From: Providencia rettgeri
Lineage (GTDB): Bacteria; Pseudomonadota; Gammaproteobacteria; Enterobacterales; Enterobacteriaceae
Length of the DNA: 64,000 nucleotides
Direction: 5' to 3'
Assembly: GCF_013255915.1 (NCBI RefSeq)
Contig: NZ_CP053896.1
Coordinates: forward strand, 3,224,001 to 3,288,000
Shown here: positions 22,783 to 33,149 of the stretch, in pieces
Layout: every line of letters starts with the position of its first letter
How positions within the stretch are numbered: the first letter of the stretch is position 1
The notes under the pieces: model-generated
Databases searched by the model: none
Told to the model about the DNA's origin: nothing
What the model saw: the letters and a program-made list of their open reading frames with translations, nothing else
Program-made: the position numbers and the translations under genes

Positions 22783-25176
22783 CTACTCGGGAAATAGCGG
22801 TAAGCCAAACCACAGATGATACCAGCGGGGCTGAATTTCATAGCGATAACGTGAAATTTTAATTTTTTCCTTTTTAAACCATATAGTTAACTGGCCATCT
22901 TCCGCTGTATTTAACCATTTAATATTATTATTTTTATACCGAAAATAGACTTTTGGCGATGGAATTTTCCATGCACTATACCTTGCTGATGAGACTACCA
23001 CCATTGAAGGTTGAACATTTCTTAATAATAAATCAGTTGATGACGTGCTGCTTCCATGATGAGGAGCGAAAAGAAGAGTCGAACGTAACCGATTCTTGTA
23101 CATTGCGACCAGTGATTTTTCCCCTTGTTTTTCGATATCTCCTGTTAATAAAATTTTATGAAACCCATCCGTTAATTGAATAACACAAGAATCATCATTA
23201 TGTGATATTGGTGCTAGCTTTTCAGGCCATAATACTTCAAAAGTTAATATCCCCCACTGCCATTTTTGGCCTTTAAAACACGGAAGGTGTTCCATACTTT
23301 TTATATTATTAGTTTTTTCCCTATTTACCGACGTTTTTTGTGGGCCAAAGCTACTTCTTACACTTAGCCATGGATATTGCTGGATTAAATAATTTGCGCC
23401 ACCAGTATGGTCTAAATGATTATGGCTTAAAATGACTCCAATTGGGGTTATATCGTGATATTTAAGGAAAGGAATAATTTGACGCTGTGCATTGCTATCC
23501 CCTTTCCATACATTACCTGTATCATAGAGTAACGCTAAATTGTTTTGTTCTATCACAACAGCCAAACCATGCCCGATGTCTAATACCGTCATTCTCCAAC
23601 CTTCTTTGGATTGTTTACCGCTCCCCTTTTCTAAGAAAATTGAAATAACTACACAGCTAATAAGCCCGAAATAGCGCTTGTACCACTTAAATAAAACGAC
23701 AATGATACTTAACCAACATATTAAAAATAAATAATAGGGAACATTGATAAATTCTGACCAAAAAGTACTGAAATAAGGTAATGGTTTTAGCCCTATATCT
23801 ATAACCCTATCTATCGTATATAAAATAGGTTGCTGAACCACTTTTATTGGTACTAAAAACAAGAGCAAAATAGCAGGAACAACACACCAAGAAACTAACG
23901 GGACAAACCAGATATTTGCCACTAACCCCATTACATTAATACCATTAAATAGACTAAGTTGCATTGGGATCAGTAAGACTAGTAAGCCAATTTGTAAATG
24001 GGTTAACCCTATAATTTTCCCCTTTACACCTTTAGATAAATGATATGGTAGTGGAAATATGGTTAACCAATAAAGAATGGCTAGCACAGCGAAACTAGAT
24101 AACCAAAAACTATCTGACAAAATAGCTAATGGGTCTAATAATAATATTCCTGCGATACTCCACAGTGCCCATTGCCAAGCAAAATACCTTGCAGGCTTAT
24201 TTCTGATATATACCCATAATAGTAGGGCAAATAATGCTCGAGTCGCAGGGATAGCAAAGCCAGAGATCCATGCATAAAAAATTGCTAGCCCTATACCAAT
24301 TACTACTGGTAGTGTTTCATTGACATACTTTATTGGTAAAAAATATTGAATCCCTCGAGTGATAAGAAAGCCAAACAAGTAAGCTAACCCAATATGCAAG
24401 CCTGATATAGCCATTAAATGTGTCAAACCTGTTCTCTGTAGTAAATATGTTTGTTCTACTGCCAACAAACTTCTATCTCCAAACATTAGTCCATAAATAA
24501 TCCCTTTATTAGATAATGAATTAATTAGCTCCATATAATTATGGATAACTTTTTGTCTTACAGAACAATCCTTTTTTAATAATTCTATTTTCTTACTTTT
24601 CAAAACTCCAATGATTCTATTAGCCAAATAATAACGTTGTAGGTTAAATCCTCCTTCATTTAGTGAGCTGTGTAGTGGCTTTACAGTGCCATTGATTCGC
24701 CACAACTGCCCAGCGCAAACTGTTTCCTTTGTTTTCCACGTAGCATATAAAGGAGGGAAAACAATGCGGTTGTTAATTTTATCAATACGTACTTTGATTT
24801 TTTGTTCTTTGTCACTTAATGAAATACCAACAATAACTATATTAATATCGTTATTTTTTGTAGATAGATAATTGATATGGTTAATGATATTAATTCCATG
24901 CCAATTAGCCCATAAGAAAAACATAATAGTTAATGCAAGGAACTTTCCTAACTTACCCAATAGAAAGAGCATTATTAACAGCACCATAAATAACACGATA
25001 AAGAGTAATTCACTCAACATTATAATTTCAGGTATAAATAAAAGTGGTAACGTACCTAAAATCAAAGCAATAGAAGCCAGCGTCATCGAAACAGGTGAGT
25101 TTTTATTAAAGATTAAATTATATTTTTTGAGTGGATTATTTAACCATCTCATTATGTAGATGATATTTTTTATCAA
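22783..25176 (-). CDS. ycaI: ComEC/Rec2-family DNA internalisation protein YcaI
   Basis: Polytopic inner-membrane protein of the ComEC/Rec2 family, the channel for single-stranded DNA entry in naturally transformable bacteria; its role in enterobacteria is little known. 797 residues from a TTG start at 25176, which has AGGGA at good distance; ATG 25152 (789 residues) is the alternative. Order: N-terminal membrane segments and soluble domain, the Competence domain (GLTHLMAISGLHIG at about 260) with many helices, then a C-terminal metallo-beta-lactamase-like domain with SHNHLDHTGG and APHHGSSTSS. It appears intact. A long hexanucleotide array and a palindrome lie upstream. Confidence 0.92.
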   Translation of the reverse strand: MIKNIIYIMRWLNNPLKKYNLIFNKNSPVSMTLASIALILGTLPLLFIPEIIMLSELLFIVLFMVLLIMLFLLGKLGKFLALTIMFFLWANWHGINIINHINYLSTKNNDINIVIVGISLSDKEQKIKVRIDKINNRIVFPPLYATWKTKETVCAGQLWRINGTVKPLHSSLNEGGFNLQRYYLANRIIGVLKSKKIELLKKDCSVRQKVIHNYMELINSLSNKGIIYGLMFGDRSLLAVEQTYLLQRTGLTHLMAISGLHIGLAYLFGFLITRGIQYFLPIKYVNETLPVVIGIGLAIFYAWISGFAIPATRALFALLLWVYIRNKPARYFAWQWALWSIAGILLLDPLAILSDSFWLSSFAVLAILYWLTIFPLPYHLSKGVKGKIIGLTHLQIGLLVLLIPMQLSLFNGINVMGLVANIWFVPLVSWCVVPAILLLFLVPIKVVQQPILYTIDRVIDIGLKPLPYFSTFWSEFINVPYYLFLICWLSIIVVLFKWYKRYFGLISCVVISIFLEKGSGKQSKEGWRMTVLDIGHGLAVVIEQNNLALLYDTGNVWKGDSNAQRQIIPFLKYHDITPIGVILSHNHLDHTGGANYLIQQYPWLSVRSSFGPQKTSVNREKTNNIKSMEHLPCFKGQKWQWGILTFEVLWPEKLAPISHNDDSCVIQLTDGFHKILLTGDIEKQGEKSLVAMYKNRLRSTLLFAPHHGSSTSSTDLLLRNVQPSMVVVSSARYSAWKIPSPKVYFRYKNNNIKWLNTAEDGQLTIWFKKEKIKISRYRYEIQPRWYHLWFGLPLFPE

Positions 25177-25304
25177 TTTTAGTATCCCTACATAGATTTA
25201 TTAGCTCTAGTTTAATTATTCATACTAAATTTTTTAAGTTTCTATCATCTCTTTTATGTAGCTCTTCCCGAAATATTTTTTCTTTATAAAAAGGTACATA
25301 TTAG

Positions 25305-25324
25305 TTTGCGAAGCGCTTCGCAAA
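25305..25324. promoter_or_regulatory. 20-bp perfect palindrome, candidate operator
   Basis: TTTGCGAAGCGCTTCGCAAA is a perfect 20-bp palindrome in AT-rich DNA about 130-150 bp upstream of the ycaI start. The form, with a central CG-rich step, recalls LacI-family operators. No regulator can be assigned from sequence alone. Confidence 0.5.
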
Positions 25325-25390
25325 ACATGTATATATCTCTAAAAGTAGTTTTGAATTTGTTTTATTACATTAAGAGTTTAGAAATATATT

Positions 25391-25600
25391 GGTGTTGGTG
25401 TTGGTGTTGGTGTTGGTGTTGGTGTTGGTGTTGGTGTTGGTGTTGGTGTTGGTGTTGGTGTTGGTGTTGGTGTTGGTGTTGGTGTTGGTGTTGGTGTTGG
25501 TGTTGGTGTTGGTGTTGGTGTTGGTGTTGGTGTTGGTGTTGGTGTTGGTGTTGGTGTTGGTGTTGGTGTTGGTGTTGGTGTTGGTGTTGGTGTTGGTGTT
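25391..25600. repeat. (GGTGTT)35 hexanucleotide microsatellite
   Basis: Exactly 35 uninterrupted copies of GGTGTT (AACACC on the other strand) span 210 bp, with two further matching bases before and one after. It lies between the ihfB terminator and the presumed ycaI promoter, so it is probably untranscribed or in the ycaI leader. The lack of any interruption suggests recent expansion or active slippage. Confidence 0.98.
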
Positions 25601-25612
25601 GATCAGAAATAA

Positions 25613-25646
25613 AAAACAGTGCCGTATAAAATACAAGCACTGTTTT
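25613..25646 (-). terminator. ihfB terminator
   Basis: On the minus strand AAAACAGTGC and GCACTGTTTT pair, and the second arm runs on into a T-rich tail (TTTTTTATTTC). It lies about 30 bp after the ihfB stop. Confidence 0.88.
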
Positions 25647-25674
25647 GATGTAATAATTAAGATTTACAGCCCGA

Positions 25675-25962
25675 TTATTGGCCGTAAATATTTACACGAT
25701 CACGTAATTCTTTACCTGGTTTAAAGTGAGGAACATATTTACCTTCTAGTTCCACTTTATCACCAGTTTTTGGGTTACGGCCAACGCGTGGAGCACGGTA
25801 GTGAAGAGAAAAACTGCCGAAACCACGGACTTCAATACGCTCACCGTTAGCTAACGTATCCGCCATATGCTCAAGAATTTCCTTTACAGCTTCCTCAACG
25901 GTTTTTGCTGAAAGATGAGACTGCTGGCTAGCCAGTCTTTCAATTAATTCAGACTTGGTCAT
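25675..25962 (-). CDS. ihfB: integration host factor subunit beta
   Basis: Beta subunit of the DNA-bending heterodimer IHF. It is 95 residues (E. coli 94). The DNA-binding arm contains [20 protein letters not shown] with the intercalating proline, and [10 protein letters not shown] precedes it. GGGAGG lies just upstream of the start. It follows rpsA, separated by the rpsA terminator, as in E. coli. Confidence 0.97.
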
Positions 25963-25989
25963 AGTACCTCCCTAAACTACCGTTACAAA

Positions 25990-26011
25990 GGGGCAACGCT
26001 ACTGTTGCCCC
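25990..26011 (-). terminator. rpsA terminator
   Basis: GGGGCAAC and GTTGCCCC pair perfectly around a six-base loop just after the rpsA stop. The T tail is weak, so some read-through into ihfB is likely. Confidence 0.75.
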
Positions 26012-26018
26012 CACTTAA

Positions 26019-27692
26019 TTATTCGCCTTTAGCTGCTTTGAAAGCTTCAGCCATAGCATTGTTGCCGAATGCTGTATCTTCTTGTTTGTTCACAGCTGCG
26101 ACAGCGTCTTTCTCATCAGCTTCGTCTTTAGCGCGAACAGACAGGTTGATTACACGGTTTTTACGATCAACACCAGTGTATTTAGCTTCAACATCATCAC
26201 CAACGTTCAGAACCAGTGTTGCATCTTCAACACGGTCACGTGAAGCTTCTGATGCACGCAGGTAACCTTCAACGCCCAGTGTCAGCTCAACAGTTGCACC
26301 TTTAGCATCAACTGCGATTACTTTACCAGTTACGATTGCGCCTTTCTTAGTTGCTGCTAAATAGTTATTGAATGGATCTTCAGCTAACTGTTTAACACCT
26401 AAAGAAATACGTTCACGCTCTGCGTCGACTTGCAGAACAACAGCTGCGATTTCATCACCTTTTTTGTATTCACGAACTGCTTCTTCGCCTGCAACGTTCC
26501 AGGAAATGTCAGACAGGTGAACCAGGCCATCGATGCCGCCGTCCAGACCGATGAAGATACCGAAGTCAGTGATAGACTTGATTTTACCTTCAACGCGGTC
26601 GCCTTTGTTGTGAGTTTCTGCGAATTGCTGCCATGGGTTAGATTTGCACTGTTTCAGGCCCAGTGAGATACGACGACGTTCTTCATCAATATCCAGAACC
26701 ATAACTTCAACAACATCACCAACGTTAACAACTTTAGATGGGTGGATGTTTTTGTTAGTCCAATCCATTTCTGAAACGTGAACCAGACCTTCAACGCCTT
26801 CTTCGATTTCTACGAAGCAACCATAGTCAGTCAGGTTAGTAACGCGACCAGTCAGTTTAGTACCTTCTGGGTAACGTTTAGCGATTGCGACCCAAGGATC
26901 TTCGCCCAGTTGTTTCAGACCCAGAGAAACACGAGTGCGCTCACGGTCGAATTTCAGAACTTTAACATTGATTTCATCACCAACGTTGACGATTTCGCTT
27001 GGGTGTTTAACACGTTTCCAAGCCATGTCAGTGATATGCAGCAGGCCGTCAACACCGCCCAGATCAACGAATGCACCGTAGTCAGTAAGGTTCTTAACGA
27101 TACCTTTAACTTCCATGCCTTCTTGCAGATTTTCCAGCAGTTGATCGCGCTCAGCGCTGCTTTCAGATTCAATTACAGCACGACGAGAAACAACAACGTT
27201 GTTGCGTTTCTGATCCAGCTTGATTACTTTGAACTCAAGCTCTTTGCCTTCCAAGTGAGTAGTATCACGAACTGGACGTACATCAACCAGTGAACCTGGT
27301 AAGAACGCACGAATACCGTTCAGCTCAACAGTGAAACCACCTTTAACTTTACCGTTGATAACACCAGTTACAGTTTCAGCTTCTTCGTAAGCTTTTTCCA
27401 GCATCAGCCATGCTTCATGACGTTTAGCTTTCTCACGAGACAGGATAGTTTCACCGAAACCATCTTCTACTGCATCCAGAGCTACATCGATTTCATCGCC
27501 AACTTGGATTTCTAGCTCACCCTGAGCATTTTTGAACTGTTCTACTGGGATAGCAGATTCTGATTTAAGACCTGCGTCAACAAGGACTACGTCTTTATCG
27601 ATGGCAACAACAGTACCACGGACGATAGAACCAGGACGAGTTTCAATATTCTGCAGGGATTCTTCAAAGAGTTGAGCAAAAGATTCAGTCAT
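26019..27692 (-). CDS. rpsA: 30S ribosomal protein S1
   Basis: RNA-binding ribosomal protein needed to initiate on mRNAs with weak Shine-Dalgarno sequences. ATG 27692 gives 557 residues starting [12 protein letters not shown], the E. coli length; the open frame upstream adds 12 residues without family support. Six S1 repeats are visible, the later ones with the typical [12 protein letters not shown] and [13 protein letters not shown] strands. Only a weak GAAG precedes the start, as in E. coli, where rpsA initiation depends on leader structure and is repressed by S1 itself. Codon use is that of a highly expressed gene. Confidence 0.98.
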
Positions 27693-31227: not shown

Positions 31228-31443
31228 TGACCTCACCCTATCTATCTTCAATTATGGTTAATAAAATTCACTCAGATAGTTAAAGTTGTACCACTCCAAG
31301 CCTTTAGCTGCAACGGTTATTGTCAGCAATCCCAAAAATGAAAGGGGGGTTATTTTTTGATAATGGGGAAAAGAATTTTGTTAATCTTGTCACACTCTCG
31401 ACAAGCACCATTTTATGGAGAAATTAACAATAAATAAGCGATA

Positions 31444-31482
31444 ATATCCCGAATTACATCATTGCGCTGTGTTTCGGGATAT
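31444..31482 (-). terminator. pgm terminator
   Basis: ATATCCCGAA and TTCGGGATAT form a perfect 10-bp stem with a 19-base loop, about 35 bp after the pgm stop. An AT-rich tail follows. Confidence 0.65.
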
Positions 31483-31514
31483 TCATTGAAATGTCTTTTA
31501 TTGAAGATTAAAAA

Positions 31515-33149
31515 TTAGCGAATAACTTTGCTTACGATTTCAATCGCTTCTTTTTCTATTTGGCGTAAATGCTCTTCTCCACGGAAGCTTTCACAATAAA
31601 TTTTATACGCTTCTTCCGTGCCTGATGGCCTTGCTGCAAACCAGCCATAATCAGTCATGATTTTTAAACCACCAATTGGCGCATTATTACCGGGGGCTGC
31701 GGTTAAACGCTGTGTAATTTTATCTCCTGCCAATGTATCTGCTGCAACCATTTCCGGTGATAATTTACTTAGCTTCGCTTTTTCTTCGTGAGTAGCTTTC
31801 GCTTGAATACGGTTGTAAATCGGTGCCCCAAATTTTTTGGCGAGGTTATTATAACGCTGCTGCGGGTTTTCACCGGTAACCGCCGTAATTTCCGCGGCTA
31901 GTAAGCAAAGAATGATACCGTCTTTGTCTGTTGACCAAGGTGTGCCATCGAATTTTAAGAATGATGCCCCTGCACTTTCCTCACCGCCAAAACCTAGTTG
32001 TCCACTGAATAACCCATCAACGAACCATTTGAACCCTACAGGCACTTCAACTAATTCACGACCGATATCATTAACAACACGGTCAATCATCGCACTTGAG
32101 ACAAGTGTTTTCCCTACCGCAACATTTTTTCCCCACTGAGGGCGGTGTTGGAATAGGTAGTCGATTGCCACAGCAAGATAGTGATTTGGGTTCATTAAAC
32201 CATCGGGGGTAACAATGCCATGACGGTCATAGTCAGGGTCATTAGCGAAAGCTAAATCAAATTTTTCTTTCATCCCAAGCAAACCCGCCATTGCCCAACT
32301 TGATGAGCAATCCATACGGATAACACCATCATGATCCAAAGGCATAAAACGGAACGTTTGGTCTAATTGGTCATTTACAATTTCAATATCCAATTGATAA
32401 TATTCAGCAATTTTTTTCCAGTATTCAATACCGGAACCGCCTAGTGGGTCAACACCAATTTTCAAACCAGACTTAGCAATCGCTTGCATATCAACAACTT
32501 CGCCTAATGCAGATACATAAGGCATAACCAAATCTTGCTGAATAACGTATTCACTCGCCATCGCTGTATCAAAATTGACTCTTTTAACCCCTTCCAGGTT
32601 ATTGACTAGCAATTGGTTTGCATTCTTTTCAATAACAGAAGTTAAATCGGTATCAGCCGGCCCGCCATTCGCAGGGTTGTATTTAATACCGCCATCTTCA
32701 GGTGGGTTATGTGAAGGCGTAATCACAATGCCATCCGCAACATCTTGGTGTGATTGGTTATAACTTAAAATAGCGTGAGAGATAGCTGGAGTTGGCGTAA
32801 AACCATTATTTTCCTGAACAATTACATGAACTTGATTTGCCGCTAACACTTCAACCACTGTAATAAACGCCGCTTCTGATAACGCATGGGTGTCTTTCCC
32901 TACAAAACAAGGACCTGTTACACCTTGTTTTTTGCGTAAATCGGCAATTGCTTGTGCAATAGCTAATATGTGGTTTTCATTAAAATTTTTACGCAACGAA
33001 CTACCACGATGCCCTGATGTACCAAACTTAACAGCTTGAGATGTATTACCGGGTTGTGGTTGCTGCGTATAATATTGAGCGGTTAATTGAGCGACATTGA
33101 TCAAGTCACTTTGAAACGGAAGCTGCCCTGCACGTTCATGTATTGTCAC
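31515..33149 (-). CDS. pgm: phosphoglucomutase (alpha-D-glucose specific)
   Basis: Interconverts glucose 1-phosphate and glucose 6-phosphate, feeding UDP-glucose and envelope sugars. The start chosen is GTG 33149 (544 residues; E. coli 546, which begins MAIHNRAGQ), with GGGAG seven bases upstream; the frame extends 13 codons further without support. The phosphoserine loop is [11 protein letters not shown], the metal loop DPDYDRHG, the sugar loop GGEESAGAS and the phosphate site [10 protein letters not shown]. It lies 56 bp after seqA, forming the conserved seqA-pgm operon. Confidence 0.95.

Follow-up and report, generated by a model that had tools for sequence, protein, structure and literature searches.

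Bacterial microsatellites are usually discussed as a single unit at a single gene. The closest described systems are non-coding arrays upstream of adhesin genes. At hmw1A of Haemophilus influenzae, more copies of (ATCTTTC)n result in less transcript, according to the available section of PMC8262952. The repeats at nadA of Neisseria meningitidis act via the spacing of distal elements (available section of PMC2791445). A different type of system is the CRP-S promoter. The available section of PMC6728893 gives the consensus TGCGA-N6-TCGCA as the site of CRP with Sxy/TfoX, describes the CRP-S sites of E. coli as asymmetric (TGCGA-N6-TTCCA), and reports an E. coli reporter with two TGCGA halves that was active with or without Sxy expression.

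In the window, the stretch of 64,000 nucleotides from Providencia rettgeri that was analyzed in the present study, a perfect array lies between the ihfB terminator inverted repeat and ycaI. The features of this region are as follows.

25389..25601, strand not assigned: perfect tandem array of 35.5 units of TTGGTG (35 x GGTGTT at 25391-25600), from the sequence and Tandem Repeats Finder.
25675..25962, minus strand: ihfB (integration host factor beta; PF00216), upstream of the array.
25611..25646, minus strand: inverted repeat AAAACAGTGC...GCACTGTTTT with a T run, the presumed intrinsic terminator of ihfB, assigned by eye.
25305..25324, strand not assigned: palindrome TTTGCGAAGCGCTTCGCAAA, a match to the CRP-S consensus TGCGA-N6-TCGCA by sequence comparison.
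22783..25176, minus strand: ycaI (comEC/rec2), a 797-amino-acid open frame from TTG (PF03772, PF00753, and PF13567).

Tandem Repeats Finder reported a period of 6 and 35.5 copies with 100% matches and 0 indels. On the sense strand, which is the minus strand and the direction of ihfB and ycaI, the array reads (AACACC)n. (GGTGTT)4 occurred in the 4.74-Mb genome at the array site only, and (GGTGTT)3 gave 33 overlapping matches in the window versus 0.00 expected from 100 dinucleotide shuffles of the window. The original prediction had described 35 uninterrupted 6-bp units in non-coding DNA between the ihfB terminator and a ComEC/Rec2-type gene. The repeat count was confirmed, with 25391-25600 being the whole GGTGTT units of 25389-25601. 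The two neighbors were borne out by the sequence and open reading frames, and the assignment of ycaI to ComEC/Rec2 by its three Pfam domains. The non-coding placement also stands. A coding role is unlikely because relatives carry units of 2, 4, 7, and 8 bases, with which repeat frames could not persist. The ATG at 25152 appears by eye to be a likelier start of ycaI than the TTG. Hairpins similar to the ihfB inverted repeat were present in the relatives inspected. Our terminator scan, which covered loops of 3-8 only, did not list 25611-25646, the loop of which is too long for the scan. Besides the ihfB terminator, no regulatory element was found upstream of the array, although the promoter scan was uninformative, with 3 sites versus 2.4 expected.

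In 24 Providencia genomes, we examined the spacer that follows ihfB and scored perfect arrays of at least three copies. Such an array was found in the ihfB-ycaI spacer of 14 genomes and was absent from 10/24, with unit lengths of 2, 4, 6, 7, 8, or 9 bases. Across all genomes surveyed, two loci cut by contig ends (L017 and L025) and one containing N (L030) were counted as array-bearing, and two cut short after ihfB (L042 and L217) as array-free. The sense unit was AACACC in seven genomes, with 8 to 42 copies in the six that have the whole array. The remaining sense units were CCAACAC (x15), ACCAGC (x28) with CAGCAT (x5.8) at one spacer, CAAACAGC (x11.6), CTCCAAAC (x8.5), TAAC (x14.8), CA (x32.5) with AACC (x6.2) plus a run of N at one spacer, and CAAACTCCG, of which three copies run to the contig end. 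A difference in copy number, which the original prediction had anticipated, was observed between the two genomes of this species that were compared: the second (G005) has 10 copies versus 35 here. In a tree of the 1.5-kb rpsA-ihfB region, the AACACC, CCAACAC, and ACCAGC loci fell in one clade and the other units on separate tips, which suggests that the arrays of these three units probably share a single origin. Imperfect repeats, which may be decayed arrays, were present in the spacers of 6/25 array-free relatives (Tandem Repeats Finder, score 36), the best being TTTATTTTCCTTT x 4 with a score of 74 in L092. The ihfB-ycaI spacer of L048 contains no microsatellite and is filled with what we take to be REP/BIME palindromic repeats.

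Arrays at the ihfB spacer also occur outside Providencia. In the genus g83, which we guess to be Proteus, 5/20 genomes have one, all with other units (TCTATTC x8.7, TTCTGC x7.3, TTCCATC x6.1, TCTAATC x10.9, and TCTCTTAT x11.2). Among 98 further enterobacterial genomes, an array was found in two (0/18 and 2/80), namely CCCTAAT x4.4 (L191) and CTGCTT x6.5 (L206). These 98 genomes were chosen among the approximately 150 best RpsA matches listed for 295 genomes and, therefore, small symbiont genomes are missing from them; L051 and L052 were excluded from the first 18 because their genomes belong to the g83 set. A tblastn search for ycaI matched in 62/80 loci and gave no match at L191 or L206. The ORF after L206 resembles, by eye, the start of ycaI. 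Downstream of the L191 array is a chemoreceptor-like ORF (PF02203) instead of ycaI, and thus the array follows ihfB, but not always ycaI.

Four control spacers were read for arrays: A (1/18), B (0/24), C (rplQ, 0/23), and D (rplS, 1/24). Control A is the spacer by an Lrp/AsnC-type gene and was selected because this genome has an array there; 6/24 genomes are without the gene, and L144, a weak second match in G013, was dropped. Control B is the spacer at 31251-31515 of the window, and its 0/24 refers to the spacer itself; ATTCGT x 3 was found in two loci approximately 1.8 kb from it. Controls C and D are spacers after the ends of ribosomal-protein operons, with G015 having no rplQ match for control C. 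Recurrence at the ihfB spacer stands out against these controls (Fisher's test, 14/24 versus 1/71 for controls B-D pooled, about 1e-9, a value that ignores kinship). In a 400-kb sample of this genome, TTTATCATT x9.9 was the only other array of at least five copies.

This second perfect array is located at L068:4694-4782 (G000:C1, about 2744694), just downstream of the Lrp/AsnC-type regulator gene. Its site is empty in the other genome of the species and in 17/18 genomes with that gene. Separately, an array of TAGAATAAA x 6.2 lies downstream of rplS in G016 (L274:2037-2093), and the ihfB spacer of G016 also has a 9-base unit.

The units at the ihfB spacer share a strand composition. In a hand count of approximately 13 separate units, from Providencia and beyond, C was at least twice as frequent as G on the sense strand in every one. 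In three arrays from other spacers of the genus (AAAATCGG, ATGATAAAA, and TAGAATAAA), G exceeds C on the sense strand. Replication skew was rejected as the cause of the strand bias because it runs opposite: the GC skew of the plus strand was negative in 8/8 stretches of the window. A sign test on the unit bias (13/13, null of one half) gave 0.0002. However, this test overstates the case because C simply outnumbers G in many spacers of this kind, namely in 22/24, 24/24, 14/23, and 4/18 control spacers (64/89) and in 11/18 and 32/40 genomes of other genera. Given this frequency in the controls, what stands out is only how strong the bias is. Between 60 and 200 nt past the stop, a C:G ratio of at least 2 was found in 15/24 Providencia and 17/20 g83 genomes, and in 9/24 and 13/20, respectively, with arrays masked. 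The corresponding counts were 0/18 and 4/40 in other genera (this count spans 58 of the 98 genomes, while the array and rut counts span all 98) and 0/18, 1/24, 0/23, and 1/24 in the controls (2/89 together). In this genome, 5/75 co-directional spacers had such a ratio, in a survey with crude ORF calls that did not include the ihfB spacer itself.

We also searched for Rho-utilization (rut)-like windows with a rule that follows RhoTermPredict as given in the available section of PMC6407284. The rule is a 78-nt sense window with C above G and a C every 11-13 nt, applied without the pause site that RhoTermPredict requires. Such a window is present at this locus as a consequence of (AACACC)n. Windows with a C:G ratio of at least 3 were found in 13/24 Providencia genomes (12/14 array-bearing and 1/10 array-free), 9/20 g83 genomes, 7/98 others, and 0/18, 4/24, 0/23, and 1/24 controls. 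Windows of any strength occurred in 68/98 other genomes, 21/24 loci of control D, and 2/10 array-free Providencia genomes; array-free L028 has G above C. The rut signature is supplied by the array, and array-free relatives are mostly without it. With a rut-like window in only 2/10 array-free Providencia genomes, the function supposed here is not a conserved one across the genus. The sense RNA folds more weakly in 18/21 Providencia genomes, but in 8/20 g83 genomes and in 61/80 others, and weak folding is therefore not special. The composition pattern is compatible with a flexible insulator and just as well with a biased spacer that holds a neutral array.

The palindrome at 25305-25324 agrees with the CRP-S consensus at 14/14 positions, which was equaled by 0/200 spacer shuffles. 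The original prediction was correct that a palindrome neighbors the array, but missed its match to this consensus. It had also proposed that copy number could alter spacing at the ycaI promoter, which was not borne out. The CRP-S-like site lies on the ycaI side of the array and, therefore, copy number leaves the distance from this site to ycaI unchanged. In the 8 tabulated of the 14 array loci, this distance was 158, 158, 158, 158, 159, 152, 132, and 131 bp, with array lengths of 49 to 257 bp. The array end was 62-75 bp from the site in these loci, but 145 bp in L014, for which a site matching less well than the rule requires was taken. The 20-base consensus match before ycaI was reached by at most 1/200 letter shuffles at 20/22 Providencia loci with ycaI (exceptions, L014 and L031) and at 19/20 g83 loci (exception, L095), where its form is degenerate. 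The strict CRP-S pattern had 0 matches in the 20 g83 loci (L076-L095), whereas a degenerate search did match: a palindrome of the TTTACGAGTTTCTTCTCAAA type lies 169-180 bp upstream of ycaI in 18/20. A TfoX_N gene (PF04993, above the cut-off) is present in 24/24 Providencia genomes. However, the Providencia site is symmetric, and the symmetric reporter described above was independent of Sxy; therefore, Sxy dependence is not to be taken for granted.

The exact 14-mer GCGAAGCGCTTCGC was found at 36 places in 15/24 Providencia genomes. Its context was read at 20 loci with 21 sites, and one representative per context was compared with Pfam. Sites were located ahead of a helix-hairpin-helix (comEA-like) gene (3), a prepilin-like (pseudopilin) gene (3), rmuC (3), and ycaI (2), between an HNH gene and flhB (4), and between sbcD and phoB (5), with no gene start near one site (the first site of L108). 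The HNH-nuclease gene beside flhB, which we take to be yajD-like, has the CRP-S-type palindrome in L108, L110, L114, and L121; L108 carries a second copy at a distance of 675 bp, and no gene starts close to it. In E. coli, yajD is a member of the Sxy regulon. The palindrome between sbcD and phoB was observed in five Providencia genomes (L106, L109, L119, L122, and L124), and either gene could be under Sxy/CRP control.

Based on these comparisons, we tentatively favor, with less than even confidence, a slippage-driven array with replaceable units in an insulating spacer, perhaps acting as a Rho-type back-up terminator. In this reading, slippage would maintain and renew a non-coding microsatellite at a single favored position, a spacer bounded by the end of the rpsA-ihfB genes on one side and by the CRP-S-type promoter of ycaI (comEC), the gene for the DNA-uptake channel, on the other. 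Copies may change through strand slippage, as the genome comparison suggests, and the spacer may tolerate any unit provided that the read-through RNA is C-rich and G-poor. We speculate that this RNA serves as an insulator of flexible sequence, the simplest form of which would be a rut stretch in reserve behind the intrinsic terminator. Such insulation would keep ihfB transcription from leaking into a gene that is meant to be off outside competence. The insulator is favored because arrays recur here (14/24) versus few at the control spacers, and because all of the approximately 13 units are strongly C-biased, against the GC skew. In contrast, it is weakened by the L191 array, which precedes a chemoreceptor-like gene and not ycaI. 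A broader proposal, which we regard as doubtful, is that a repetitive spacer rich in C and poor in G has been preserved in evolution between a ribosomal-protein operon and comEC through the repeated birth of new arrays, the length of which would set read-through into comEC and background DNA uptake.

Neutral slippage is nearly as likely as the insulator. The spacer would be free of sequence-specific content, and duplicated C-rich motifs would expand, drift, and vanish, leaving arrays without function. Consistent with this, one clade of five genomes has four different units (L027, L030, L031, and L032) and an empty spacer in L028, five different units occur across 20 g83 genomes, and the second genome of the species already lacks the TTTATCATT x 9.9 array. 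Furthermore, the arrays may simply reflect the spacer around them, since masking of the arrays leaves a C-rich spacer in 9/24 Providencia and 13/20 g83 genomes. However, neutral slippage does not alone explain why arrays are at this spacer rather than the four controls, or why all of the approximately 13 units are strongly biased in the same direction, against the GC skew.

By analogy with contingency loci, slippage may instead alter the expression of ycaI and, hence, competence from cell to cell; we consider such a copy-number rheostat unlikely. Two properties of contingency loci were found here, a perfect short-unit array and a copy number that varies within the species (two genomes), and the C-rich, G-free 7-mer array at hmw1A and the nadA repeats provide a precedent. 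The array also adjoins a CRP-S-type site in Providencia, and a degenerate site is present before ycaI in 19/20 g83 loci. However, the presumed activator site lies between the array and the gene, its distance to ycaI does not vary with array length, and 10/24 Providencia genomes have no array.

An assembly artefact, a possibility that the original prediction had itself raised, is very improbable. Long perfect repeats are hard to assemble: the array runs off the contig end in G016 and G020, and the two arrays at the G004 locus are separated by a run of N, which is either a gap or a withheld stretch. However, many separate assemblies have arrays with different units, and G010 and G013 among them are single-contig. 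Moreover, the complete chromosome of P. rettgeri RB151 (NZ_CP017671.1, L034) carries 15 copies of a 7-base unit at the equivalent spot, so that the array is not the fault of a single assembly. The copy number of 35 is as assembled and could be off. The G020 contig that opens in the array starts with AGATGTGTATAAGAGACAG (L017:1-19), which is presumably leftover sequencing adapter.

Other candidates were rejected. G-quadruplex or telomere-like DNA is not a common denominator because several units have no GG on the plus strand (TTAG, GT, and 4/5 g83 units). A search of 24800-26100 gave no Rfam match at E up to 1. A dispersed element was also rejected; the motif is single-copy in this genome, and no plasmid record matched 25150-25962.

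The comparative pattern is real and unusual, and the function proposed for it is drawn from sequence comparison. Since the place is kept and the unit is exchanged, this locus offers a direct test of whether composition, and not sequence, is selected. In Providencia, a hypervariable element also adjoins what is presumably the comEC competence promoter. The literature matches listed included no study of transformation in Providencia and no paper on the ihfB-ycaI repeat.

In comparison with known systems, the locus resembles rut sites in its C-rich, G-poor 78-nt sense sequence with spaced C, present at 12/14 array-bearing Providencia loci. It differs from them in that the signature is missing in 8/10 array-free Providencia genomes, and the likeness is one of sequence. 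Similar to CRP-S competence promoters, TGCGA-N6-TCGCA is located ahead of comEC in Providencia, with the same motif near comEA-like, pseudopilin, rmuC, and HNH genes. However, E. coli sites are asymmetric, whereas the Providencia site is symmetric, as in Haemophilus. To our knowledge, promoters of the CRP-S type do not include a tandem array. The hmw1A and nadA loci share with this locus a perfect, short-unit, non-coding array of variable copy number upstream of a gene, and the hmw1A unit ATCTTTC is also C-rich and G-free (available section of PMC8262952). In contrast, hmw1A and nadA are adhesin genes with demonstrated effects on expression, while here a DNA channel gene is compared at the sequence level. 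Moreover, the Providencia array lies upstream of a presumed activator site, and its unit is replaced from species to species.
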